Assembly: GCF_021789175.1 (NCBI RefSeq) | Contig: NZ_CP084560.1 | Span: forward strand, 620,001 to 684,000 | Direction of reading: 5' to 3' | From: Arthrobacter sp. FW306-2-2C-D06B | GTDB lineage: Bacteria; Actinomycetota; Actinomycetes; Actinomycetales; Micrococcaceae | Length of the DNA: 64,000 bases | Part shown: positions 7,765 to 33,541 of the stretch, piece after piece | How positions within the stretch are numbered: the first letter of the stretch is position 1 | Layout of the letters: each line of letters opens with the position of its first letter | The notes under the pieces: model-generated | Told to the model about the DNA's origin: nothing | The model's input: only the letters and a program-made list of their open reading frames with translations | Databases searched by the model: none | Position numbers and translations under genes: made by a program

Positions 7765-9756
7765 GTGGGTAAATCGCAGAACATTCGGGTTGGGCTGATC
7801 GGGGCAGGCCCTCGCGGCACCAGTGTGCTGGAGCGTTTGCTCGCCAATTGGGCTGCGACGGAAACCCAAACGCGATCCCTGCACATCGACGTCGTTGACC
7901 CCTATCCCGCCGGCCCCGGGCACGTCTGGCAGCCCGATCAGTCCCGGCTGTACCTCATGAACACCCAGTCCTTCTACCCCACACTGATCCCCGAGGACGA
8001 GCGACTCGCGCCGCCGTTGGCCGGGGGCTCCTTTGAGCAGTGGCGAGCGAAGCAGCGGTCAGTTGGCGGTCCGGGCCTGAGCGACGAGGAACGGGCTGAA
8101 CTTGCCGTGCTCGCCTCCCACGACTTTCCCAGCCGTGCCCTGTACGGACGGTATCTGCGTTCGACGCTGGAGGACCTGCTGGACCGTGTCCCGGCCGGCG
8201 TCGAGATCGCCTTTCACCGGAACAACGCCGTGGCGGCGCGTCCCCTGCCGGGCGGGCCGGCGGACGGTTCGCCGGGTAAGCCCGCGGGCGGCGGGTTCGA
8301 CGTCGAACTCGACGACGGTGCTCGGCTCACCGTGGATTCCCTCGTCCTCGCGCTGGGCCACCTTGAATCCCGGCTCAACCCGGAGCAGCGTTCGTTCAGG
8401 GAAGTGGCGGCGGAGCTTGGGCTGTTGTACGTGCCGCCGGCCGCACCTGCCGACGTGGACTGGGCACTCGTCCCGGACGGGGAGACGGTCCTGGTCCGGG
8501 GCATGGGCCTCAATTTCTTCGACGTCATGGGCCAGCTGACCGAAGGCCGCGGGGGACAGTTCGTGCCGGCCGAAGACGGTCTCCAGGGGAAGCTTAAGTA
8601 CTTGCCTTCGGGCCGGGAACCGAAGGTCATCGCGGCATCCAGGCGTGGCACTCCGTACCGGGCCAAGGCCGGCTTGGACGGTTATTATCCCAAGTCCGTG
8701 CGCTTGCGGTATCTGACCGAGAACGCGGTGGAACGCTTCGCCGCGGCCGGAATCCAACCTGGCTTCGATCACGACCTTTGGCCCCTCCTGCATCGGGACG
8801 CCCTGTGGGCTTACTATTCAACATTGATCGTGGCGGAACCTGTAGCCGTGTCTGATGCGACTGAATTCCTTGCGGCCTTGGAAGACTTGTTGCGGCCACA
8901 CGCGCATGCCACCGGGCGATGGGAAAACCAAGTCGCGGAGTTGGTCTCCACCCACGTAGCGGCGTCGCGCCGCCTTGACCTGCTAGGCCTCGCGGCGCCT
9001 TTGGCCGGGCATTCCTTTGCCTCCAGGAAGGAACTCGACGCCGCCGTCGTGGACTATCTGGACGACGACGCCCGCCGCTCCGCGCTCGGGGAAGCAGATC
9101 CCGTGAAGATGGCCATCGGTGCGTTGCACACGGGAAGGGCCATCCTGAAGAGTGCCGTGGCCGACGGCGGCATCACGGACGAATCGTGGGTTGGCGAACT
9201 GAGGGGCTGGTTCGAGTCCTTCGTTGAGGGACTCGCGAGCGGTCCGCCCGCCCTGCGCGCCGAACAATTGGCCGCTTTGGCGCGTGCCGGCGTCGTGAGT
9301 TTCGTCGGCCCGGATCCGCGATTCAGCGTTGATCATTCCAAAGGCGTCTTCCGCGCGGTGTCTGCCTGGGTGCACGCCGACGCCGCGGAAGCCAGGACCC
9401 TGATTGAGGCGATGTCCCCGGCGAACCGGGTGGGCGTGAGTGTTTCTCCGTTCCTGCGGCAGTTGCTCGCCGACGGGTTGGTGCGACCCAAGGTGATGAT
9501 GACTGCCGAGGGAACGCCGGTGCAGACCTCCGGGTTGGATGTCGAGCCGCACCCCTACCGACTGGTAGGCGCCAACGGTTCCGTGACTCCGGGGATGTAC
9601 GCCCTTGGCCTGCAGCTTTCCTCCACCCAATGGGGAACCGCCATCGCCGCGGAAGCCCGGCCTTCCGATGGCACCAGCTACCGAAGCGGCCAACGGACCC
9701 TCCGCGACGCGGACGAAATCGCCAGGGACATGCTCGGCCTTCCCCTCCAAAAATGA
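7765..9756 (+). CDS. FAD/NAD(P)-binding protein
   Basis: A 663-residue protein with an N-terminal Rossmann dinucleotide-binding motif 'VGLIGAGPRGTSVLERLL' and a length and layout matching the large FAD-NAD(P)-binding family (Pfam PF13454-type) found in actinobacteria. A second nucleotide-binding region around 'DGETVLVRGMGLNFFDV' fits a two-dinucleotide-domain flavoprotein. Its substrate is unknown. GTG 7765 was taken as start because of the TAGGCT -10 box; an in-frame TTG six bases upstream is the alternative. It is divergent from the prolyl oligopeptidase gene, and its stop codon lies at the edge of a palindromic element. Confidence 0.78.
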   Translation: MGKSQNIRVGLIGAGPRGTSVLERLLANWAATETQTRSLHIDVVDPYPAGPGHVWQPDQSRLYLMNTQSFYPTLIPEDERLAPPLAGGSFEQWRAKQRSVGGPGLSDEERAELAVLASHDFPSRALYGRYLRSTLEDLLDRVPAGVEIAFHRNNAVAARPLPGGPADGSPGKPAGGGFDVELDDGARLTVDSLVLALGHLESRLNPEQRSFREVAAELGLLYVPPAAPADVDWALVPDGETVLVRGMGLNFFDVMGQLTEGRGGQFVPAEDGLQGKLKYLPSGREPKVIAASRRGTPYRAKAGLDGYYPKSVRLRYLTENAVERFAAAGIQPGFDHDLWPLLHRDALWAYYSTLIVAEPVAVSDATEFLAALEDLLRPHAHATGRWENQVAELVSTHVAASRRLDLLGLAAPLAGHSFASRKELDAAVVDYLDDDARRSALGEADPVKMAIGALHTGRAILKSAVADGGITDESWVGELRGWFESFVEGLASGPPALRAEQLAALARAGVVSFVGPDPRFSVDHSKGVFRAVSAWVHADAAEARTLIEAMSPANRVGVSVSPFLRQLLADGLVRPKVMMTAEGTPVQTSGLDVEPHPYRLVGANGSVTPGMYALGLQLSSTQWGTAIAAEARPSDGTSYRSGQRTLRDADEIARDMLGLPLQK

Positions 9757-23188: not shown

Positions 23189-24556
23189 ATGAAGAACTCA
23201 AGGACGCGACTTATTGGCGCGGTCGTTCTCGTTTCGCTGGGAGCACTAGGGGTAACCGGATGCGGTGGCGACAATAGCTCTGCAAGCGCGAGCGGGGGCG
23301 CCCCTAACGGCCAGGGCAAGACCCTGGATGTCTTGGTCGGTGCCAACACAAACAAAGCCGAGCAGTACAAGGCCTGGCAAGCCCACATTGCCGATGCATT
23401 CAAGAAGCAGACCGGCGCTGACCTGAAATTCGAGACGTTTGCCAACGCCAACGATGAGCTCTCGAAGATCCAAACCTCTGTTGTCGCGGGCCAGGGCCCG
23501 GACGTGTACGCGGTGGGTACGACCTTTACCCCGACCGCGTACTCAACGGACGCCTTCGTGAAGTTCGACTCAAATATGTGGAACAAGGTAGGCGGCCGCG
23601 ATCGCTTCGTTCCGGCGACGCTCGGAATTTCCGGTCCCGACGCCCAGAACGAAGTGGGCGTCCCCTTCACCTCCCGGCCCTACGTTCTTGCCTACAACAC
23701 CGAATTGTTCAAGAATGCGGGGCTGGACAAGCCGGCGAACACTTGGGACGGACTGCTGGATCAGGCCAAGAAGCTGACCACGGGATCCACGTACGGGTTC
23801 GCGACCGGATATGCGGACAACTACACACCGTGGAAGTTTGCCTGGGCCATGGCCAACCAGTCCGGCAACCCCCTGGTGGATGGAAAGACAGCCCGCATTG
23901 ATGACCCGACTGTGCTCAAGGCATATGAAACGTACTTCGGCTGGCTGACTAAAGACAAGGTAGTCAACCCGGCCGCAGTGGGTTGGAACGACACCCAGGC
24001 TGCAGCTGACTTCGCCGCGGGTAAGTCCGCGATGATGTTGATGACTACCGCATCATCAAAGGTCACGTTCGATGCCTCACCGGTGAAGGGCAAGTACGCC
24101 TACGCCGTGATGCCGACTGTGCCCCCCGGCCAGAGTTCCGCCCCCTCCGGTGGCCAGCCGGTCAGCTCAATCATTTCCGGTGACAACCTGGTGATCGCAA
24201 AGTACTCGGAGAACCAGGACCTCGCGGCTGCGTACATCAAACTGCTCACCAGCGACGACGAGCAGATCAACTACAACAAGCTGTTCGGGGATCTTCCCAC
24301 GAACGCCGCAGCTGCCAAGAAGGTCCAGGACGCGGATCCCTCGCTGTCCCCGATCATTGATTCGGCATCCAAGGCGAAGACCACGCCGTTCACGGGCGCA
24401 TGGGGCGACATCCAGCTGGCGATGACCAACGTCGTCGTTCAATCCCGCCCGGATCTTGGCAATGGCAGCTTCAATGAGACCAATCTCAAGGCTGCGCTGG
24501 CCAAGGCCCAGAAGGATGCCCAAGCCTCCCTCGACAGGGCGTCGGCAAACAAGTGA
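23189..24556 (+). CDS. Sugar ABC transporter substrate-binding lipoprotein
   Basis: A 455-residue extracellular solute-binding protein, family 1. Its signal peptide ends in the lipobox 'VTGC' with the lipidated Cys at residue 25, followed by a Ser/Gly linker. The body shows the family pattern, e.g. 'GPDVYAVGTTFTPTAY' and 'VPFTSRPYVLAYNTELFKNAG'. It captures a carbohydrate for the two permeases encoded next. Start ATG 23189 is preceded by GAGGAG. First gene of the operon; the stop overlaps the next gene as GTGA. No ATPase gene is present locally, as is usual when a shared MsiK-type ATPase is used. Confidence 0.9.
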   Translation: MKNSRTRLIGAVVLVSLGALGVTGCGGDNSSASASGGAPNGQGKTLDVLVGANTNKAEQYKAWQAHIADAFKKQTGADLKFETFANANDELSKIQTSVVAGQGPDVYAVGTTFTPTAYSTDAFVKFDSNMWNKVGGRDRFVPATLGISGPDAQNEVGVPFTSRPYVLAYNTELFKNAGLDKPANTWDGLLDQAKKLTTGSTYGFATGYADNYTPWKFAWAMANQSGNPLVDGKTARIDDPTVLKAYETYFGWLTKDKVVNPAAVGWNDTQAAADFAAGKSAMMLMTTASSKVTFDASPVKGKYAYAVMPTVPPGQSSAPSGGQPVSSIISGDNLVIAKYSENQDLAAAYIKLLTSDDEQINYNKLFGDLPTNAAAAKKVQDADPSLSPIIDSASKAKTTPFTGAWGDIQLAMTNVVVQSRPDLGNGSFNETNLKAALAKAQKDAQASLDRASANK

Positions 24557-25524
24557 GCATCACTGTGAAAAAAGACGCCGCCCTGCGGCGCGCCCCGGAG
24601 CTTGGCGGGCAACCTCCTGCCAAGCGCCGGCGGACTGTGAGCGAACGAAACCGGCCGCTGTGGATGCTCACTCCGGGTGCGCTCCTGATCGGCCTGATCA
24701 TCATCGTTCCCCTGATTCTAGGCATCTACATCGCGATGCTTCAGCTGGATCAGTACACCATCCGTAAATGGATCAGTGCCCCTTTCGTGGGACTGAACAA
24801 CTTCGTCGAAGCGTTCACATCCACTGACTTGGTCCACGCCTTCGGCAACAGCGTCGGCTTCTCGGTGATCGCCACCGTCATTACCGTGCCGATCGGTATT
24901 TACGCCGCACTGGCGACCCAGAACGCTTATCGTGGCAGGTCATTGGTGCGCTCGATGTTCCTGATTCCCTATGTCCTCCCATCGTTCGTGGTCGGAAGCT
25001 TCTGGCGCACCATGCTCCAGCACGACGGCATCGTCAACAAGGTGCTGACCGGGTTCGGGCTGCCTGCCGGTCAATGGCTCACCGGTCCGGCCAGCTTCTG
25101 GGTACTGATCCTCGTCGAAGTCTGGGCGGCCTGGCCGTTCATCTACCTCATGGCATTGTCGGGCCTTCAATCCGTTGACCAGGAAGTCCACGAGGCTGCC
25201 GCGATCGACGGCGCCCTATGGTGGACGAAACTGCGCTACGTGATCTTCCCTTATTTGCGCGGGCCGGTCGCCTTGGCCTGCCTCATCGCGACCCTCCACC
25301 ACATGAACAACTTCTCGCTTGCCTTCTTGCTCTTCGGCGTCCCTGCTCCATTTGACGTGCAAGTACTGCCGACCCTCGTCTACAGCATGAGTTTCACCAG
25401 CTTGCGGTTCGGCATGGGAGCGGCAATGGCACTGATTTCGCTTCTGCTGATCGCCATACCGCTCTACTTCTACCTGAAGGCCGTTCGACTCGATACCGGT
25501 ACCGACGCGGGAGGCAGGAAATGA
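24553..25524 (+). CDS. Sugar ABC transporter permease (MalF-like)
   Basis: A 323-residue inner-membrane permease with six or so transmembrane helices after a basic cytoplasmic N-terminus. The EAA loop that contacts the ATPase is 'EVHEAAAIDGALWWTKLRYV'. It starts at a GTG overlapping the previous stop and ends overlapping the next start (ATGA), so the three transporter genes are translationally coupled. Together with the next permease it forms the heterodimeric channel. Confidence 0.92.
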   Translation: MSITVKKDAALRRAPELGGQPPAKRRRTVSERNRPLWMLTPGALLIGLIIIVPLILGIYIAMLQLDQYTIRKWISAPFVGLNNFVEAFTSTDLVHAFGNSVGFSVIATVITVPIGIYAALATQNAYRGRSLVRSMFLIPYVLPSFVVGSFWRTMLQHDGIVNKVLTGFGLPAGQWLTGPASFWVLILVEVWAAWPFIYLMALSGLQSVDQEVHEAAAIDGALWWTKLRYVIFPYLRGPVALACLIATLHHMNNFSLAFLLFGVPAPFDVQVLPTLVYSMSFTSLRFGMGAAMALISLLLIAIPLYFYLKAVRLDTGTDAGGRK

Positions 25525-26474
25525 GCAACAACCAGGCTCCCGACGTCGTCATGGAAGTTCCGCTGGAGACCTCCCCGGCGCTTCGCGCTGGAAGTGTGCC
25601 ACGCAAGACCGGACGGCAGACCGCCGCAGTGTATCGTCTGCTCCCGACACCTCTGTTGGTCGGCGGCACCATCGTGCTGTGCGCCATGGTCGCGATTCCC
25701 TTGCTCTATATCGTGTTCTCGTCCATGAATTCGGATGTGGAAGTGGCCCGTGGGGCATACTTCCCCACCGAATTCACCCTGGACAACTACACGAAGATCT
25801 GGAGCACCCTGCCGTTGGGCAACGGGCTGATCAACAGCGTCATGATCGCCGGCGCGGTCGCCGTCGTTTCCTCGTTGCTGGGCATCATCACCGCCTACGT
25901 GCTGGTCCGGTTCGAGTTCGTGGGCCGCCTCAGCATTCTGCGCGGGCTCATCGGCCTGCAAAGCGTTCCGGGCGGACTGCTCCTGCTCCCGGTGTTTGTT
26001 CTCTTCGCCTCAGCGGGCAACTATCTGGGAATCACGGTCATCGGCACCTACTGGGGCCTTTTCCTCGCGTACCTGACATTTGCGCTGCCGTTTTCCACCT
26101 GGGTCATGGTCACCTATCTGAGGGGCTTGCCCAAGGAACTCGAGGAAGCAGCCCGCATCGACGGATCTTCTTCCCTCGGGGTCCTTTTCCGGATCATCTT
26201 CCCGCTCAGCTGGCCCGGGTTGGTGGTTTCCGGCGTGTTTTCCTTCCTGCTCGGCTGGAACGACGTCATGTTCGCCTCGGTCTTGACCCGTCCAAACACC
26301 CAGACCGTTGCGGTTGTCCTGCAGATCTTTGGTTCCTCCGCGGAGGGCGGGGCGCTTCCCCTTTACGGCCAAATGATGGCCGCATCCTTGGTCTGCGCCG
26401 CCCCGGTGGTCATCCTCTATCTCATCTTCCAACGATTCCTCGTCGGCGGCATGACCGCCGGCGGTGTCAAGTAG
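25521..26474 (+). CDS. Carbohydrate ABC transporter permease (MalG-like)
   Basis: A 317-residue permease, partner of the preceding one. The EAA loop is 'ELEEAARIDGSSSLGVLFRI', followed by 'FPLSWPGLVVSG'. An unusually long N-terminal extension of about 45 residues precedes the first membrane helix. The start ATG overlaps the upstream stop by four bases. Confidence 0.92.
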   Translation: MSNNQAPDVVMEVPLETSPALRAGSVPRKTGRQTAAVYRLLPTPLLVGGTIVLCAMVAIPLLYIVFSSMNSDVEVARGAYFPTEFTLDNYTKIWSTLPLGNGLINSVMIAGAVAVVSSLLGIITAYVLVRFEFVGRLSILRGLIGLQSVPGGLLLLPVFVLFASAGNYLGITVIGTYWGLFLAYLTFALPFSTWVMVTYLRGLPKELEEAARIDGSSSLGVLFRIIFPLSWPGLVVSGVFSFLLGWNDVMFASVLTRPNTQTVAVVLQIFGSSAEGGALPLYGQMMAASLVCAAPVVILYLIFQRFLVGGMTAGGVK

Positions 26475-26523
26475 GCCAGCCACACCGGCTGCCACCCATG
26501 CATCACCTCAAGGAGAAAACGAC

Positions 26524-27369
26524 GTGACCGTCAAGCAAACCCAGTGGACCCTGTCTGGATTCGGCGACGAAATAAGCCCTGACCCGCTCATCCAGATCGC
26601 AGTCCTGCAGGCCTTGGGCGCCAACCACATCGAAGTCCGCAGCGCTTGGGACACCAACATCGTCGAGATGTCCGAAGAGGACCTCGTCCGGCTGGAGCAG
26701 ATACTGCGCGAGCAAAACATGGGCGTGTCCGCCATTGCCTCTCCCATCGGCAAGGTGGACGTCACCACGCCTGTCGCCGTCGAGGTGGACCGCCTCCACG
26801 CGGCCATTCGTGCCGCGAAGATCCTGGGTACCCGTTACATCCGGATCTTCTCGTTTTATCGAGAGGAAGGCCTCAACGCCGAAGACATCCGCGACGCCGT
26901 CATGGTGCGGATGCGTGCCTTGGCCGCAGAGGCCCAGGCACACGACGTCGTGCTCTTGCACGAAAATGAAAAGGACATCTACGGCGACACGCCTGAACGC
27001 GTCCTGGACATCATTACGACCGTTAATTCCCCGGCGCTGCGGGTTGCCTGGGACGCCGCGAACTTCGTTCAGGTAGGTGTCAAGCCCTTCAGCGAGGCAT
27101 ACGACATGCTTCGCCCGTACCTGGAATATCTCCAAGTCAAGGATGCCCGTGCCGATGACAGCCTGGTGATGCCGGCGGGCGATGGCGACGGCCAACTCCG
27201 CGAAACCATCAACGCACTGAAGGCGGACGGTTTCGAAGGCTTCGCTTCCTTGGAACCACACCTGGCAAACACCCATCACCTCGGAGGATTCTCCGGACCT
27301 GCAGCGTTCGGAGTTGCGGGCCGCGCCTTCAACCGCCTCCTCGCAGAAGCCGGAGTTGGCACAAAATGA
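26524..27369 (+). CDS. Sugar phosphate isomerase/epimerase (TIM barrel, AP endonuclease family 2)
   Basis: A 281-residue xylose-isomerase-like TIM barrel. Features include 'FGDEISPDPLIQIAVLQALG', 'GTRYIRIFSFYREEG', metal-ligand Glu in 'VLLHENEKDIYG' and 'AWDAANFVQVG', and a C-terminal 'GFASLEPHL'. Members include inosose isomerases/dehydratases and rare-sugar epimerases. GTG 26524 was chosen because AAGGAG lies nine bases upstream; an in-frame extension to 26464 overlaps the permease. The stop overlaps the next gene (ATGA), which places the enzyme in the sugar operon. Confidence 0.87.
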   Translation: MTVKQTQWTLSGFGDEISPDPLIQIAVLQALGANHIEVRSAWDTNIVEMSEEDLVRLEQILREQNMGVSAIASPIGKVDVTTPVAVEVDRLHAAIRAAKILGTRYIRIFSFYREEGLNAEDIRDAVMVRMRALAAEAQAHDVVLLHENEKDIYGDTPERVLDIITTVNSPALRVAWDAANFVQVGVKPFSEAYDMLRPYLEYLQVKDARADDSLVMPAGDGDGQLRETINALKADGFEGFASLEPHLANTHHLGGFSGPAAFGVAGRAFNRLLAEAGVGTK

Positions 27370-28544
27370 CCACCTCGAACACTGCAACCACGCCCAAACG
27401 CCGGCTGCGCACCGCCGTCGTCGGCTGCGGAGTCATCGGCCGCCAGCACGCCCGGGTTATCACCGACAACAAGGACCTGGAGCTCATCGCCCTCGTTGAC
27501 CCGGTGGGGCCAGCCGCGGCTGCGTTGGCGGACTCGGTCGAGAACGAGCTGCACAACCCTCGTCCGGCGACGTACTCGTCGCTCGCGGCAGCACTAAAGG
27601 CCTCGGACATCGACCTTGTCGCAGTCTGCACGCCAAGCGGCCTACACGCCGATCTGGCCGTAGAGGCCCTGAATGCGGGCAAGCACGTCCTCATCGAAAA
27701 GCCGATCGATGTTGACTTGCCCAGCGCTAGGCGCATCGCGGATGCTGCGGCTGCCGCGACAGGGCAGGTCATTTCGGTGATCAGCCAGCACAGATTCGAT
27801 CCGGCCAGCGTCGCCGTGGCTCGGGCGGTCCGGTCCGGACGCTTCGGCAGGATCACCTCGGGAGTGGCTTCGCTGGCCTGGTGGCGGGCGCAGAATTACT
27901 ACGACTCCGGCCAGTGGCGGGGCACCTGGGAGCTCGACGGCGGCGGAGCCGTGATGAATCAAGGCGTCCACAGCGTTGATCTGCTTCTTTGGTTCCTGGG
28001 AACCCCTGTTCAGATCCACGCCCATACTGCGTTGCTTGCGCACGAACGCATCGAAGTGGAAGACACAGCAGTTGCCACCGTCCGTTTCGCCTCGGGCGCC
28101 CTTGCAGTGATCCATTGCACCACTGCGGCCTATCCCGGACTTACTGCCCGGATCCAGGTCCACGGCGACAAGGGCTCGGCCGTGGTCGACAATGATCGGC
28201 TGCAGTATTTCCATGCCGCTGATAACGCTCCCGTCGAGGGAGAATCCTCCTACGGCATGGCCGGGGCCGGGAACCAGTCCGAACTTGAGGTCGGGGCGCA
28301 TGATGCCTCAGCCAACACGGACGGATCAGACGACCTGCAGACCGCGCACCAAAAGCAGTACGCCGACGTCGTGGAATCCATCCGATCAGGAAAAGATCCG
28401 CGGGTCGGAGTTCAGGAAGCAACCGCGGCCCTGGCCACGGTGCGGGCCCTTTACGTGTCGGCAACCTTGGGGACGGCCGTGTACTTCGAAGACGTCCTGG
28501 CCGGGAAGTATGACGACCTCGTTGTCCACACCGGGGGCGCTTAG
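27366..28544 (+). CDS. Gfo/Idh/MocA family oxidoreductase
   Basis: A 392-residue NAD(P)-dependent dehydrogenase. The N-terminal Rossmann motif is 'VVGCGVIGRQHARV', the family signature 'EKPIDVD' carries the catalytic-region Lys, and 'GGGAVMNQGVHSVDLLLWFL' holds the conserved His of the C-terminal domain. It would oxidise the imported sugar or inositol derivative. Last gene of the operon; its TAG stop overlaps the stop of the convergent downstream gene. Confidence 0.9.
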   Translation: MTTSNTATTPKRRLRTAVVGCGVIGRQHARVITDNKDLELIALVDPVGPAAAALADSVENELHNPRPATYSSLAAALKASDIDLVAVCTPSGLHADLAVEALNAGKHVLIEKPIDVDLPSARRIADAAAAATGQVISVISQHRFDPASVAVARAVRSGRFGRITSGVASLAWWRAQNYYDSGQWRGTWELDGGGAVMNQGVHSVDLLLWFLGTPVQIHAHTALLAHERIEVEDTAVATVRFASGALAVIHCTTAAYPGLTARIQVHGDKGSAVVDNDRLQYFHAADNAPVEGESSYGMAGAGNQSELEVGAHDASANTDGSDDLQTAHQKQYADVVESIRSGKDPRVGVQEATAALATVRALYVSATLGTAVYFEDVLAGKYDDLVVHTGGA

Positions 28545-29427: not shown

Positions 29428-29625
29428 GGTGTTTCCTCCTCTGGTTCGGCAGCCGATCGATCCGGCCGTTACTACATACTAAGCATGCTTTGGGTTTGGA
29501 TTTCAAATCCGGCCGAGTTGCCGTGCATGACACTGCAGTGTGTTCATCCGGCGGCCGCCCGTCAACAAAGGGACGAACCGTGGAAACCAAACGCACAACC
29601 TCACGGGCCGTGGCAGAATCGTCTG

Positions 29626-29829
29626 ATGCCACTGATCCAGGTTTTGAACGCTTCGCCGGCATCTACCGATAAGAAGCGAGAGCTGCTGGCAGCGCTGACT
29701 GCGACCTACGCCGACGTCATGGGGATCCGGCTCGACACCATCCGCGTCGTCCTCCACGAAGTCCCGCGAGAGAACTGGTCCGTGGCCGGAGTGACCCTCG
29801 CTGATTCAGGTCAGAACGAAGCGGTTTAA
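29626..29829 (+). CDS. 4-oxalocrotonate tautomerase family protein
   Basis: A 67-residue tautomerase. The N-terminus 'MPLIQVLNAS' gives the catalytic Pro1 after Met removal, and the family pattern 'KRELLAALTATYADVMG' then 'VVLHEVPRENWSVAGVTLAD' follows. Members are hexamers of about 62 residues that tautomerise 2-hydroxymuconate and relatives. ATG 29626 is fixed by the need for Pro at position 2; upstream in-frame codons encode unrelated sequence. No aromatic degradation genes are adjacent. Confidence 0.85.
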   Translation: MPLIQVLNASPASTDKKRELLAALTATYADVMGIRLDTIRVVLHEVPRENWSVAGVTLADSGQNEAV

Positions 29830-29923
29830 GCTCCGCCAGGGGCCGCTTCCTCGACCAGGGTCAACGCGGCTGTGAACGCGATCGTCGGCTACGGTGACGT
29901 CCATGGTCAAGGAGGATAGGGAA

Positions 29924-30475
29924 ATGCAGACGACGATCCGGGTTGTCAGGCACAGCCATCTTCTTCGCGGAACCATTGAGGGCCTTCGATCCCTGTTCGA
30001 CGCCGAATATTACGAGACGTTCGGGGTATGGGATCCTGACTGTCCCTATGGGTATTCGCCCGCCGATGTCCATGTCCTCGCTTTCGATGGTCTAGGCCTC
30101 ATTGGTCACGTCGGATTCCAGCGGAGGTTGATCGACGTCGGCCCTGTCGGGGTCCTGGTGGGTGGCACTGGCGGGGTAATCGTGGCTCGTCGAGTGCGAA
30201 GAGCAGGACTCGGCACCGTGCTGATGGGCCGCGCACGGGAAGCCATGGAGACGGCTGGCGTGGATTTTGGCTACCTCGGCTGCCGTGAAGACGTGGCGCC
30301 GTTCTATGAGTCCTGCGGCTGGCGCCGGATCCGTGCTCAAGAACGGTGCCTATCAAGACGGGACAGGACCACAGTCGTCGAATCCGTGGATACCCCGATC
30401 ATGATCTGTTCCGCGGTCAAGAGCGCCGAATCGTGGCCTGCTGGACTGATCGACCTTCGGGGAACCCCTTGGTAG
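29924..30475 (+). CDS. AAC(2')/NodA-like GNAT acyltransferase
   Basis: A 183-residue protein resembling the branch of GNAT enzymes that includes aminoglycoside 2'-N-acetyltransferase and the nodulation acyltransferase NodA. Matching features from memory of those families are 'LIGHVGFQRRLIDVG' (cf. HxxxxxRRxI), 'VIVARRVRRAGLGTVLMG' (CoA-binding region), 'FYESCGWRRI', and a C-terminal 'ESWPAGLIDLRG' close to NodA's (E/D)WPAGxxID(R)NG end. ATG 29924 has AGGAGG eight bases upstream; ATG 29903 lacks one. The acceptor could be an aminoglycoside, an amino sugar or something else. It converges on the PheS-like gene. Confidence 0.8.
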   Translation: MQTTIRVVRHSHLLRGTIEGLRSLFDAEYYETFGVWDPDCPYGYSPADVHVLAFDGLGLIGHVGFQRRLIDVGPVGVLVGGTGGVIVARRVRRAGLGTVLMGRAREAMETAGVDFGYLGCREDVAPFYESCGWRRIRAQERCLSRRDRTTVVESVDTPIMICSAVKSAESWPAGLIDLRGTPW

Positions 30476-30562
30476 AGCGCCCCGCGATGGAGGTCCCGGT
30501 GGGGCCTTTTGCCGGCTGGTCCCGCGGCGCCCGGCATCATTTGGGGCAAGCCGCGGCATGTC

Positions 30563-31681
30563 CTATCCCGCGATGAGCTCCTTGACCGGCCCCTCGTGCA
30601 GTGCTCGATAAACAATGTCCCGGATCTGGTTGGCTTGGGGATCCGTCATGGTCCGGGTAAGGGGGCGCAGTACCAGACGTATCAGGGCGTTGGCCTGTCC
30701 GTCGCGGATGCGGAGCCGCTCCCGTGCTGGCGCGGGAAGTTCTCCATATGAGGTCAGCGCCAGGAGGTCGACGCTTTCCAGGTCTTCGGCTTGCTCACCT
30801 AGGGCTGTCCGCACCTGGTCTCCAAGCACTTCGGCGTCCACGTCTGCGGGAACGACGATCGAAATGTCCCTCCGAATGGAGGGCATCTGGGAGACCGGCT
30901 TCAATCGGGAGAGGTCCAGCATCTGCTGTTCGATTCTTTTGTCCGTGGACCTGAGCAACGTGATGTCGGGGATGCCTTTGCGGAGCATCAGGGCCCGGTC
31001 CATCCCCATCCCCAGAGCCAACCCCGACCACATTGCAGGATCGAGGCCGGCCTCGGAGAACAGATGCGGGGCCATGAGCCCGCATTCCGCGAGTTCAAGC
31101 CATTCCCCGTCCATGAGTACATCGACCTGTAAGCCCTCCCTGGTGTAGGGGTGAACCGCCGGGACCGTGCGCCATTGCGCCTCCGGAAGGACCGCTTGCA
31201 CGAGGGAAGCGGTCATTTCCTTCAGGTCGCCGGAGCCGAGGTGCTCCCGGGAGCTGACGCGCCACAAGTCCACCTGGTGTGGAGTGCCGACGTGGGTGCG
31301 GTCGATGGAATCGCGCCGGTAGACAAGGCCGGGGATGGCCCAGAGCTCGTCGATGGATTCATCTGGATCCAGTGCCCGCAGCAGAGATGGGATGGAAGCC
31401 GAGGTATGGCTGCGGAGCATCACTGTAGGACTGACATAGCGGGAGTATTTTTGATCCCGTGTGACATCCGATTCGTTGAACCCCAGGCGGTCGTAGTTGT
31501 CGGCCACGCTCACCAGCGGGCTATGTCGAACGATCCGTTCAGGCACACCCCATTTAATGCCGAGCGCGTCGATGACTCCTTGCAGGAGTGTCTGCATTGC
31601 GTGGGGCCCGCCGTCGGGATTTGAGAGATCCCGGATGGTCAAAGCATCGTTGAGTTCGGAGGGACTGAGATAAGCGGGCAT
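30563..31681 (-). CDS. Single-chain PheS-like tRNA-ligase homologue with FDX-ACB domain
   Basis: A 372-residue paralogue of phenylalanyl-tRNA synthetase alpha. It lacks the N-terminal coiled coil but carries a C-terminal ferredoxin-fold anticodon-binding domain ('MPSIRRDISIVVPADVDAEV', about 273-372), normally found at the end of PheT. This core-plus-FDX-ACB layout is that of monomeric mitochondrial PheRS. Class II motif 2 ('MLRSHTSASIP') and motif 3 ('GLALGMGMDRALML') keep their arginines. The amino-acid pocket differs: the usual FHQxEG reads 'TPHQVDLW' and FPFTEP reads 'VHPYTREG'. It may resemble proteins NCBI labels 'PheS-related mystery ligase SrmL'; I cannot verify that. AAGGA lies six bases before ATG. 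Confidence 0.85.
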   Translation of the reverse strand: MPAYLSPSELNDALTIRDLSNPDGGPHAMQTLLQGVIDALGIKWGVPERIVRHSPLVSVADNYDRLGFNESDVTRDQKYSRYVSPTVMLRSHTSASIPSLLRALDPDESIDELWAIPGLVYRRDSIDRTHVGTPHQVDLWRVSSREHLGSGDLKEMTASLVQAVLPEAQWRTVPAVHPYTREGLQVDVLMDGEWLELAECGLMAPHLFSEAGLDPAMWSGLALGMGMDRALMLRKGIPDITLLRSTDKRIEQQMLDLSRLKPVSQMPSIRRDISIVVPADVDAEVLGDQVRTALGEQAEDLESVDLLALTSYGELPAPARERLRIRDGQANALIRLVLRPLTRTMTDPQANQIRDIVYRALHEGPVKELIAG

Positions 31682-31698
31682 TGCTTGTCCTTATGTTC

Positions 31699-31735
31699 GG
31701 ATTTGAGTGGCGGGTTCCACCCCCGACTCAAATCC
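31699..31735 (-). promoter_or_regulatory. Leader hairpin just before the PheS-like gene
   Basis: Perfect 10-bp arms GGATTTGAGT/ACTCAAATCC enclose CGGGGGTGGAACCCGCC, which can pair further (CGGG/CCCG). It ends 17 bases before the start codon, next to the ribosome-binding site, and has no T tract. A translational or attenuation role is plausible but untested. Confidence 0.6.
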
Positions 31736-31746
31736 AGCGCCAGGAC

Positions 31747-31818
31747 CTAGGCGCGCGCCTGAGAGCCCTCGCGACCGGAACCCGGTCGGGGGCAAGTAAA
31801 TCGGCGCATGGAGAGCAT
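31747..31818 (-). CDS. Possible leaderless 23-residue leader peptide
   Basis: On the minus strand a TATAGT box is followed by six bases, then ATG at 31818 and an open frame of 23 codons ending in TAG: 'MLSMRRFTCPRP', then 'GSGREGSQARA'. The frame overlaps the hairpin CGACCGG-GTT-CCGGTCG and precedes AGGCGCGCGCCT and the hairpin at 31699-31735. This arrangement of leaderless peptide plus hairpins resembles ribosome-mediated attenuation leaders in actinobacteria. Coding is not proven; chance occurrence is possible in GC-rich sequence. Confidence 0.4.
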   Translation of the reverse strand: MLSMRRFTCPRPGSGREGSQARA

Positions 31819-31824
31819 GGGGTG

Positions 31825-31830
31825 ACTATA
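31825..31830 (-). promoter_or_regulatory. -10 box TATAGT upstream of the PheS-like gene
   Basis: TATAGT on the minus strand is the best -10 sequence in the 190-bp gap. It predicts a start at or near base 31818, that is, a 137-base leader before the PheS-like gene. No clear -35 at 17 bp. Confidence 0.5.
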
Positions 31831-31874
31831 CCCCAGCTGCCGACCCTGATCGTCGGAATCAGCGCATCGCGCAG

Positions 31875-32555
31875 CTACAAACCGAGGTCTTTGACCGCAG
31901 TGACCCAGTTGCGGGCGATCGCCTCCTGGGCAGCTGACAGGGTGACCTTGTGAGCGCAGATGGCCCTGTGCAGAGTGTTCTCCACCGCGTCTTTCGGGTT
32001 AGTGGTCCCCGTGGCGCTCGACTTGTTCGGCTCGGGCCACAGATTCGATACGGAGTTGGTGCCGCCGAGCTCCAAGCTGATCAGGTGATCGTATTCCGTG
32101 GTCTTCATTGGGACCTGGCCGTATTCGCGCAGGCTCTCGGCCTTCACCTTGTCTGTGTTCGAAGCGGGCGGGCGCACCGTGGCCGTGTAGCCGCTCGTGC
32201 AAATGGTTGAATCGATGTTCTCCTGGGTAACCGCTGGATCTGCGGCCCCCGGAGTGCAGGCCGGGTCCGGCAGGTACTCGCCGGTGGCGGCGTCGACCAC
32301 TTTGGCGGCGCACTGTCCGTCGGCAAGCTGCTCGTCGGCAGCGACCATGCCGGGGGAGTGGATGGACTTCACGGCTGCAGCCGCCGCACCCGAGGCGGCG
32401 CCCACTGGAACGGGCGCCACTCCCTGAGGAACTGCCGGCGACGCGGCCTTGGTCATCGCTTCGGCGGCGGAATGGGTTCCCTGCTGGCATCCAGTGAGGG
32501 CCAATGCAGTAACGAGGAATGCGGCGGGCAGGGCGAGGTATTTACGGAAATTCAT
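31875..32555 (-). CDS. Lipoprotein with HNH-like nuclease motif
   Basis: A 226-residue secreted protein with lipobox 'ALTGC' (Cys23) and an Ala/Pro/Val-rich linker. The C-terminal part contains 'EYDHLISLELGGTNSVSNLW' followed by PEP, the DH-x5-LGG-x(n)-NLWPE pattern of many HNH-fold nuclease-like proteins. Four cysteines ('GQCAAK', 'PACTPG', 'STICTSG', 'AICAHK') could form two disulfides outside the cell. GAGG lies upstream of ATG 32555; a 69-codon upstream extension is arginine-rich and non-native. Nuclease activity is inference. Confidence 0.78.
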   Translation of the reverse strand: MNFRKYLALPAAFLVTALALTGCQQGTHSAAEAMTKAASPAVPQGVAPVPVGAASGAAAAAVKSIHSPGMVAADEQLADGQCAAKVVDAATGEYLPDPACTPGAADPAVTQENIDSTICTSGYTATVRPPASNTDKVKAESLREYGQVPMKTTEYDHLISLELGGTNSVSNLWPEPNKSSATGTTNPKDAVENTLHRAICAHKVTLSAAQEAIARNWVTAVKDLGL

Positions 32556-32875
32556 GACCCTCAGGTGTTCGGGAGCTCGGAAGTTTGTCCCCCGGAAAAG
32601 GGAACGACGGGCGGAAGCCAGTAGCTCCCGCCCATCTTTTCTATCCCGTTGACTGGACTTCGGAGCGCCCGGCGCGCCGGGCAGCCGGTCGCAGCGAGCC
32701 CATTCAAGAATGTCTGCTCGGCCAGATCTGTGAAGTGGCGCCGCCCTGGGAAAGGGGCGCAACCGGTGGCAGGGGGACGGAGTGGGGGAAGATTAGCCCC
32801 CCAGCGACGAGTGCAATGCTGAACAGCGTCCATACGGCGGGATGTGGTCAATAGGGCCACATAGGCCGCTGTCCA

Positions 32876-33184
32876 TCAAGGATGAAAGAGGTACCGGGCG
32901 ATGAGGTAGAACGCAAAATCGGCGACACCGATGATCATGCCAGCGATGGCGAGCCCGCGCCCACGCAACCCGCGCTCTCTGACCCGCCGGAAGCCAAGGC
33001 CTGAGATTGCTGTCCCGAGTGGACCCACCATGGCAAAGACGAAAAGCCCGATGCAGCTGATGATGAACCCCGCTATTGCCGCCTTGCTGAACGGAGCGCG
33101 TGGCTGGACTGGCGCGTATGGATTAGATATCTGCGGGGCGTCGGACGGCCAACGCTTTTCGGGAGGTGGAGGAACACTGCTCAT
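32876..33184 (-). CDS. DUF4190 domain-containing membrane protein
   Basis: A 102-residue protein with a Pro-rich cytoplasmic N-terminus ('MSSVPPPPEKRWPSD') and two hydrophobic helices ('AIAGFIISCIGLFVFAMV', 'GLAIAGMIIGVADFAFYLIA') separated by 'ISGLGFRRVRERGLRGRGLA'. This is the DUF4190 pattern of small actinobacterial membrane proteins of unknown role. Start at 33184 was selected by its match to the usual family N-terminus. Confidence 0.82.
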   Translation of the reverse strand: MSSVPPPPEKRWPSDAPQISNPYAPVQPRAPFSKAAIAGFIISCIGLFVFAMVGPLGTAISGLGFRRVRERGLRGRGLAIAGMIIGVADFAFYLIARYLFHP

Positions 33185-33222
33185 GAGGTCTGTTCTTTCT
33201 CCTGGAATGTAGTCACGTGACC

Positions 33223-33541
33223 CTACGATGTTGCATGCAAGCATCCGTGCAGGCCGGGAATCCTCCGGTGTGTCGGAGCCTTGAAATCGAACTGCCTACT
33301 CTGGTGCCGGACGGGGTAGGCAAGCTCTTCCGCGGCTCCAAGGACGCCCTCCGGCCATTCGGACAGAAATATCCACGGCATGTTCTCCTCGGCGAGAAAG
33401 GTCACCGGCGCCCAGGAATAGAAGGGGATGCGGGCGCCCCGGATAGATCTCGCGGACGGCGGATTGCTCGAGCGGCCAAGGGCCGAAGTGGCGCGCCCAC
33501 CATCGGGATCGGGGGTGGAACTCAAGCCGCGAGACGCTCAT
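33223..33541 (-). pseudogene. Hypothetical gene interrupted by a one-base frameshift
   Basis: Two minus-strand frames join sensibly. From ATG 33541 the protein reads 'MSVSRLEFHPRSRWWARHFG', then 'REIYPG'. Past the run CCCC (plus strand 33437-33440) the next frame continues 'ARIPFYSWAPVTFLAEENMP' and 'RQFDFKAPTHRRIPG' to a stop at 33223. Deleting one base of the run gives a continuous 105-residue protein with normal third-position GC in both halves. I do not recognise the family. Either a decayed gene or a homopolymer sequencing error. Confidence 0.55.

Follow-up and report, generated by a model that had tools for sequence, protein, structure and literature searches.

Bacterial phenylalanyl-tRNA synthetase (PheRS) is an (alpha-beta)2 enzyme, whereas the single-chain form is listed as mitochondrial in the part of PMC3275996 available to us. 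Among other synthetases, plasmid-borne resistant IleRS is known from PMC9437257, whose accessible part deals with resistant synthetases and mentions PheRS or PheS 0 times. As for regulation, the accessible part of a 2005 survey (PMC1262725) reports phenylalanine operons of Actinobacteria without conserved RNA structure and places classical attenuators at trpS and leuS. Here we describe srmL, a gene for a single-chain PheRS-like ligase, together with the RNA leader that precedes it, within a 64,000-nucleotide stretch of Arthrobacter sp. FW306-2-2C-D06B DNA (contig NZ_CP084560.1, positions 620,001 to 684,000; hereafter the window). Taken together, sequence comparisons make it rather probable that SrmL is a self-contained Phe-tRNA synthetase that stands beside pheST, is induced when Phe-tRNA-Phe is scarce and probably serves as an inhibitor-tolerant backup.

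A PheRS-like ligase with a changed pocket

A first-pass annotation of the window had read a PheS catalytic core fused to an FDX-ACB domain in 372 residues. The open reading frame (ORF) is real and open over 372 codons, but it runs on the minus strand, from 31681 to 30563; read on the plus strand, the printed frame of this interval contains four stops. Both domains were recovered with Pfam (tRNA-synt_2d at residues 58-253, E 1e-30; FDX-ACB at 264-362, E 8.8e-8). The window protein matches NCBIfam model NF051887, “PheS-related mystery ligase SrmL”, over model positions 1-349 of 349 with 517.4 bits, the curated cut-off being 300 bits, and is thus a member of a named family without assigned function. 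A search for “PheS-related mystery ligase” and for SrmL “tRNA ligase” found nothing in the searchable set of literature, which does not cover print at large.

The closest solved structures by sequence are those of human mitochondrial PheRS (27-28% identity), and the predicted fold of SrmL agrees with this enzyme (FARS2) along the entire chain. Core and FDX-ACB domain lie in one chain with the predicted fold of the mitochondrial single-chain PheRS, the architecture that the first-pass annotation had named. A kinship with PylRS and SepRS appears weaker than that with PheRS.

Residue conservation was read from 59 aligned SrmL sequences. In these, P134, Q136, D138, H177, Y179 and T180 are invariant (59/59) and H135 is nearly so (58/59); the PheS of the same genome has, at the corresponding sites and in this order, F, Q, E, F, F, T and H. 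The Phe258/Phe260 pair of bacterial PheRS is therefore absent, H177 and Y179 standing in all 59 sequences, and E199 (31085-31087, minus strand), which lies near H177, is an invariant Glu (59/59) at a site that is glycine in PheS and FARS2. The altered phenylalanine-holding residues that had been pointed out in the window protein (PHQVDL, HPYTRE) are as described, and the pocket changes are real and family-wide. The motif 2 and 3 arginines, said to be retained, are R122 and R229, invariant in 59/59, and at the para-gate every sequence likewise retains T180 and A222.

From this pocket it had been argued that the enzyme likely activates something other than phenylalanine, a claim that fares less well. 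Human cytosolic PheRS, which has Asn410 and Tyr412 in place of the bacterial Phe258 and Phe260, still recognises Phe (PMC3275996, in the part available), and the para-gate is kept in SrmL, so that a non-Phe substrate is not implied by the pocket; the TTT leader shared with pheST, described below, also tells against the claim. The changes alone need not mean a non-Phe substrate, although with E199 and H177 in the pocket another amino acid may be possible. One such reading is stress-induced recoding, in which the His/Tyr/Glu pocket would, once Phe-tRNA is exhausted, load a different amino acid onto tRNA-Phe and so keep Phe codons readable, the enzyme being common to some bacteria, plasmids and giant phages. 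We consider it improbable: it is favoured by four invariant residues, H177, Y179, E199 and D138, where PheS has F, F, G and E, and the evidence for tRNA-Phe (leader, pheST use, phage tRNA-Phe neighbours) applies to it too, but the retained T180 and A222 and the human enzyme, which does without Phe258 and has Tyr for Phe260, speak against it, and misreading would presumably be costly.

A Phe-codon leader shared with pheST

The DNA 5' of srmL is conserved across genera. We compared the window with the best 80 of 296 relatives found in a scan of genome contigs, giving 81 loci. A regular expression (CGNTTY followed by RNA segment 1), which presupposes Arg-Phe and admits TTT and TTC equally, matched in 76/81 loci, the match in locus L100 being spurious; after the misses had been read, a leader ORF with a Phe codon was present in 77/81, the real leaders of L100 and L098 included, while L040 and L078 have less than 150 bases upstream. 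The Phe codon is TTT in 76/77 leaders and TTC in 1/77, and TTT again in 19/19 further leaders. By comparison, neighbouring genes, called heuristically, have 12962 Phe codons, of which 1361 are TTT, and srmL itself has 86, of which 3 are TTT; at the 10.5% of the neighbouring genes the chance of 76/77 would be about 10^-72 if the loci were independent, which they are not. A looser ORF rule gave 74 TTT and 2 TTC in 76 loci, a count not used here; chance ORFs in which Asp precedes Phe, read in other frames of L089 and L108, account at least for its one D entry.

The residue before the Phe is mostly Arg, with Ser in L008 and L010, and in the 19 further leaders it is Trp (10), Arg (5) or Leu (4). 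RNA segment 1 encodes the PRP that follows, which in several Nocardia gives way to PGP without loss of pairing. Since the preceding residue varies and PRP can change in this way, Phe is the conserved point of the leader peptide. These substitutions also bear on a different view of the leader, as a drug sensor. The erm and cat leaders encode peptides at which antibiotics arrest the ribosome, and a ribosome-targeting antibiotic might likewise arrest translation at the RF..PRP peptide, with no sensing of Phe-tRNA. Conservation of that motif and the plasmid neighbours cmx, erm(X) and tet(65) are in keeping with such a sensor. It is nevertheless unlikely, given that PRP is written by a pairing segment and yields to PGP, that Arg is swapped for Ser, Trp or Leu, that the unrelated leaders of L122 and L125 have only Phe codons in common, and that true pheST uses the same leader.

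The use by pheST emerged from a survey of leader distribution. A relaxed pattern gave 2 matches in the own genome (at srmL and one elsewhere) and also 2 in a reversed control, and a strict pattern matched the own genome alone among 296 genomes of the phylum; the latter was too narrow, since a covariance model found more. This model, whose training set includes the window leader and may include others of the set, gave exactly one match per genome in 9/9 srmL genomes, each just upstream of srmL, and no match in L043 or L053. Across the class it matched in 20/394 genomes: our own, 17 in which SrmL follows 3' (about 50-54% identity), and two of a single genus (L166 in genome G735, L167 in G699) in which a protein at 28% identity comes after the leader. 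This protein is the housekeeping PheS, with FHQVEG and FPFTEP, and PheT comes next. The same Phe-codon leader thus precedes true pheST in two genomes of one genus, and this, with the near-invariant TTT, points to tRNA-Phe charging.

A T-box riboswitch, which chance upstream ORFs had suggested, was rejected: neither window positions 29500-33500 (E up to 1) nor L099, L103 and L104 (E up to 0.1) gave an Rfam T-box match, and the motif is the leader described here. At the thresholds used, Rfam gave nothing like the srmL leader. In many loci a TAnnnT box stands a few bases ahead of the leader start, so the leader ORF would be nearly leaderless.

The leader can form mutually exclusive helices, in which segment 1 pairs with segment 3 or with segment 2. 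Covariation was assessed in 42 aligned leaders against 500 shuffles, a comparison that related rows inflate. Helix 1:3 is well supported, with 97.9% of cells paired and 25 double-changed cells; 0/500 shuffles reached its paired percentage, double changes or covariation score, and 5 and 14 of 500 reached two counting measures. Helix 1:2 (98.8% of cells paired, 12 double-changed, 0/500 shuffles on the same three measures) is supported by one varying pair. Shifting the partner strand sharply reduces pairing in both. At the leader stop, an anti-Shine-Dalgarno (anti-SD) segment complements the Shine-Dalgarno (SD) in several versions (GGTCCT/AGGACC, GGTCTCC/GGAGACC, AACTCC/GGAGTT). In 71 leaders (75 less three without a terminal start codon and L083) the mean longest helix is 5.8 for own pairs, 4.8 for crossed and 4.5 for shuffled ones, the own mean being lowered because segment 3 is misplaced in several rows; at least 6 pairs form in 55%, 24% and 13%, respectively. 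Segment 2 can pair with the anti-SD, in Nocardia for instance over 12 pairs, G-U counted, and in Pseudonocardia over 10. For the window leader, the fold has -69.4 kcal/mol (z -4.7) and joins segment 1 to segment 2.

Table 1 Features of srmL and its leader, in window coordinates
Feature	Position	Strand	Basis or remark
Possible -10 box TATAGT	31825..31830	-	sequence likeness only
Leader ORF MLSMRRFTCPRPGSGREGSQARA*	31747..31818	-	second ATG at 31809; covariance model match 31679-31818, 109.6 bits (training sequence)
CGA-TTT (Arg-Phe), TTT the proposed sensor codon	31798..31803	-	leader comparison
RNA segment 1 CCCCCGACC	31784..31792	-	pairs with segment 2 or segment 3
RNA segment 2 GGTCGCGAGGGC	31765..31776	-	pairing analysis, fold
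Anti-SD GGTCCT	31742..31747	-	overlaps last base of leader stop codon
RNA segment 3 AGTCGGGGG	31720..31728	-	covaries with segment 1
srmL SD AAGGAC	31687..31692	-	anti-SD/SD comparison
srmL, single-chain PheRS-like ligase, 372 aa	30563..31681	-	class II core 58-253, FDX-ACB 264-362

Carriage, mobile copies and gene neighbours

The genome search proposed in the first-pass annotation was run, and the same genome holds a canonical pheS (353 aa) with pheT directly after it. Because pheST is intact, SrmL is not the housekeeping enzyme; it is a second copy beside it, as resistant second synthetases are. Carriage is patchy, with NF051887 above its cut-off in 9/297 genomes of the order.

In a survey of plasmids, 3 of 72,556 records held an srmL copy. 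On Glutamicibacter pGnB68, a gene for a Cmx/CmrA chloramphenicol exporter comes directly before srmL in the gene listing, and on a plasmid of the gammaproteobacterium Azotobacter chroococcum a copy has insertion sequence (IS) transposases within a few kb. The third, on Corynebacterium diphtheriae plasmid FRC0402_p2 (L121), is an unannotated C-terminal piece (8001-8645) that lies between erm(X) and tet(65) and corresponds to 58% of the query; the leader pattern was not found with it. Resistance, one of the uses that the first-pass annotation had listed, thus gains some backing by association. Patchy carriage, plasmid copies beside resistance genes and the changed active site together suggest an inhibitor-tolerant second enzyme. 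SrmL might instead charge tRNA-Phe with Phe merely as a booster at times of starvation, for example through a higher affinity for Phe, with no link to an inhibitor. We hold this possible but rather doubtful: the leader logic and its use by pheST in two genomes require no inhibitor, and no neighbour family, resistance or other, is conserved in the 81 loci, yet a booster sits poorly with the patchy carriage, the strongly altered pocket and the plasmid copies, which lie beside resistance genes and even on a gammaproteobacterial plasmid.

Distant copies carry leaders of other kinds. A 634 kb phage-labelled record (L122) has an srmL at 39% identity, preceded by leader MNTNTTFNFFFSHKMV* with 4 Phe and a terminator-like hairpin; contig L125, which may be bacterial since a 2.2 Mb contig is listed with the identical protein, has leader MLNKNNFSFFMFDFFGTQARGAILLKE* with 6 Phe and a similar hairpin 5' of srmL; and the Azotobacter plasmid leader, MNNRSHRFSRPWVRSDQDRAARA*, keeps CGATTT with a terminator-like hairpin after it. 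The terminators were identified by eye. That such different leaders have Phe codons in common is the strongest argument for Phe-tRNA as the signal.

Scans of viral contigs found five distinct contigs with srmL, of 181 to 578 kb; one further scan found none. Two giant-phage contigs have tRNA-Phe genes beside or close to srmL: in L124 it is flanked by two tRNA-Phe(GAA) genes inside a tRNA array, and in L130, going upstream from srmL, tRNA-Val comes first and tRNA-Phe second. In the giant-phage contig L123 (IMGVR_UViG_3300049793_000366), srmL follows SerRS-like and HisRS-like ORFs, as read by eye, amid tRNA arrays. SrmL is the sole strong PF01409 match (110-124 bits) in 6/6 such records; in two of them a further match is weak (21 and 18 bits).

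When ORFs within about 8.5-9.5 kb of srmL were clustered, no neighbour family was conserved in the 81 loci besides srmL and its shadow frames, and srmL therefore seems to act alone. This check for conserved neighbours goes against the carrier or natural-product chemistry that had been entertained. More broadly, SrmL might charge no tRNA at all and direct its adenylate to a small molecule, a carrier or a protein instead. The changed pocket and the precedents among synthetase paralogues (PMC9437257, in the part available) allow for this, but the FDX-ACB domain, the missing partner gene, the leader common to pheST and the tRNA-Phe neighbours in L124 and L130 make it very unlikely. Two partner candidates were rejected: an ABC ATPase, seen in 17 loci of 10 genera at varying positions and strands and taken for chance, and a GNAT/NodA-like neighbour that is convergent with srmL and does not recur. 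The latter (29894-30475, plus strand) resembles NodA and AAC(2')-Ia, its 34 bits falling well short of the AAC(2')-Ia cut-off (350). Nearby on the same strand are a small 4-oxalocrotonate tautomerase-like protein (29593-29829) and, read by eye, ORFs like those of a sugar ABC transporter, a TIM-barrel enzyme and an oxidoreductase (23189-28544).

Proposed function and relation to known systems

The Phe-codon leader, its use by pheST, the tRNA-Phe neighbours in phages and the mitochondrial-type architecture together argue for tRNA-Phe charging, and we infer that tRNA-Phe and Phe are the substrates of SrmL. The switch we propose, an OFF state {1:2, anti-SD:SD} and an ON state {2:anti-SD}, is modelled on classical translational attenuators, and its proposed direction is taken from that analogy. 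With enough Phe-tRNA, the ribosome would clear the leader ORF, segments 1 and 2 would pair, and the anti-SD would hold the SD. When Phe-tRNA is scarce, a ribosome stalled at the leader Phe codon would cover segment 1, leaving segment 2 to pair with the anti-SD and the SD free. A terminator would mediate the same signal in Azotobacter and in two low-GC copies. The purpose is probably to maintain translation while the housekeeping PheRS is inhibited, making SrmL, by analogy with the resistant second IleRS, TrpRS and SerRS, an inducible, sometimes mobile, inhibitor-tolerant PheRS.

Several observations weigh against this proposal. SrmL scores below the cut-offs for both the mitochondrial single-chain PheRS (TIGR00469, 128.4 against 258.35 bits) and the bacterial alpha subunit (TIGR00468, 92.4 against 237.45 bits), and several pocket residues invariant in SrmL differ from PheS, chiefly E199 at the pocket glycine. 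The pattern used to collect leaders had Arg-Phe built in; no leader was seen in L043 and L053; most leaders hold one sensor Phe codon and no run; none was seen at the window genome's own pheS; and the covariance model did not match the Azotobacter leader (L120). In helix 1:2, one of four pairs varies on both sides and 498/500 shuffles equal two counting measures, and segment 2:anti-SD pairing shows a modest gain (mean 7.1 against 6.3 and 6.1 in controls, 72 leaders). No Phe-rich leader was found in phage contigs L123, L124, L128 and L130, nor any tRNA-Phe gene in the 49 sources scanned (the window and chromosomal loci), and the link to resistance is an association from two plasmid records.

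The proposal offers a testable function for a family that NCBI names a mystery ligase and, if true, makes SrmL a bacterial single-chain PheRS. Should the resistance reading hold too, an inducible and sometimes mobile PheRS already lies beside known resistance genes, which bears on drugs aimed at PheRS and hints that a natural PheRS inhibitor awaits discovery. To our knowledge, no inhibitor is known for SrmL.

The family name NF051887 gives no function; the leader, the phage copies and the proposed function are additions made here. Compared with the mitochondrial single-chain PheRS (human FARS2; TIGR00469), srmL genes are bacterial, phage and plasmid-borne, and the pocket is changed. Compared with the bacterial (alpha-beta)2 enzyme, the SrmL core is homologous to PheS and its FDX-ACB domain to the PheT C-terminus, but the chain is without the large beta subunit or an editing domain and coexists with pheST. 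Like the resistant IleRS (mupirocin), TrpRS (indolmycin) and SerRS (albomycin), SrmL is a divergent second copy beside the housekeeping enzyme. Given that the accessible part of PMC1262725 places classical attenuators at trpS and leuS and reports phenylalanine operons of Actinobacteria without conserved RNA structure, the kind of mechanism is known, whereas its use as a Phe-codon attenuator in Actinobacteria appears new within the searchable literature. The Phe attenuator of gammaproteobacterial pheST likewise combines a Phe-codon leader ORF with alternative RNA folds before a Phe-tRNA ligase gene, whereas in the actinobacterial form there is usually a single sensor TTT, and an anti-SD stands in place of a terminator.
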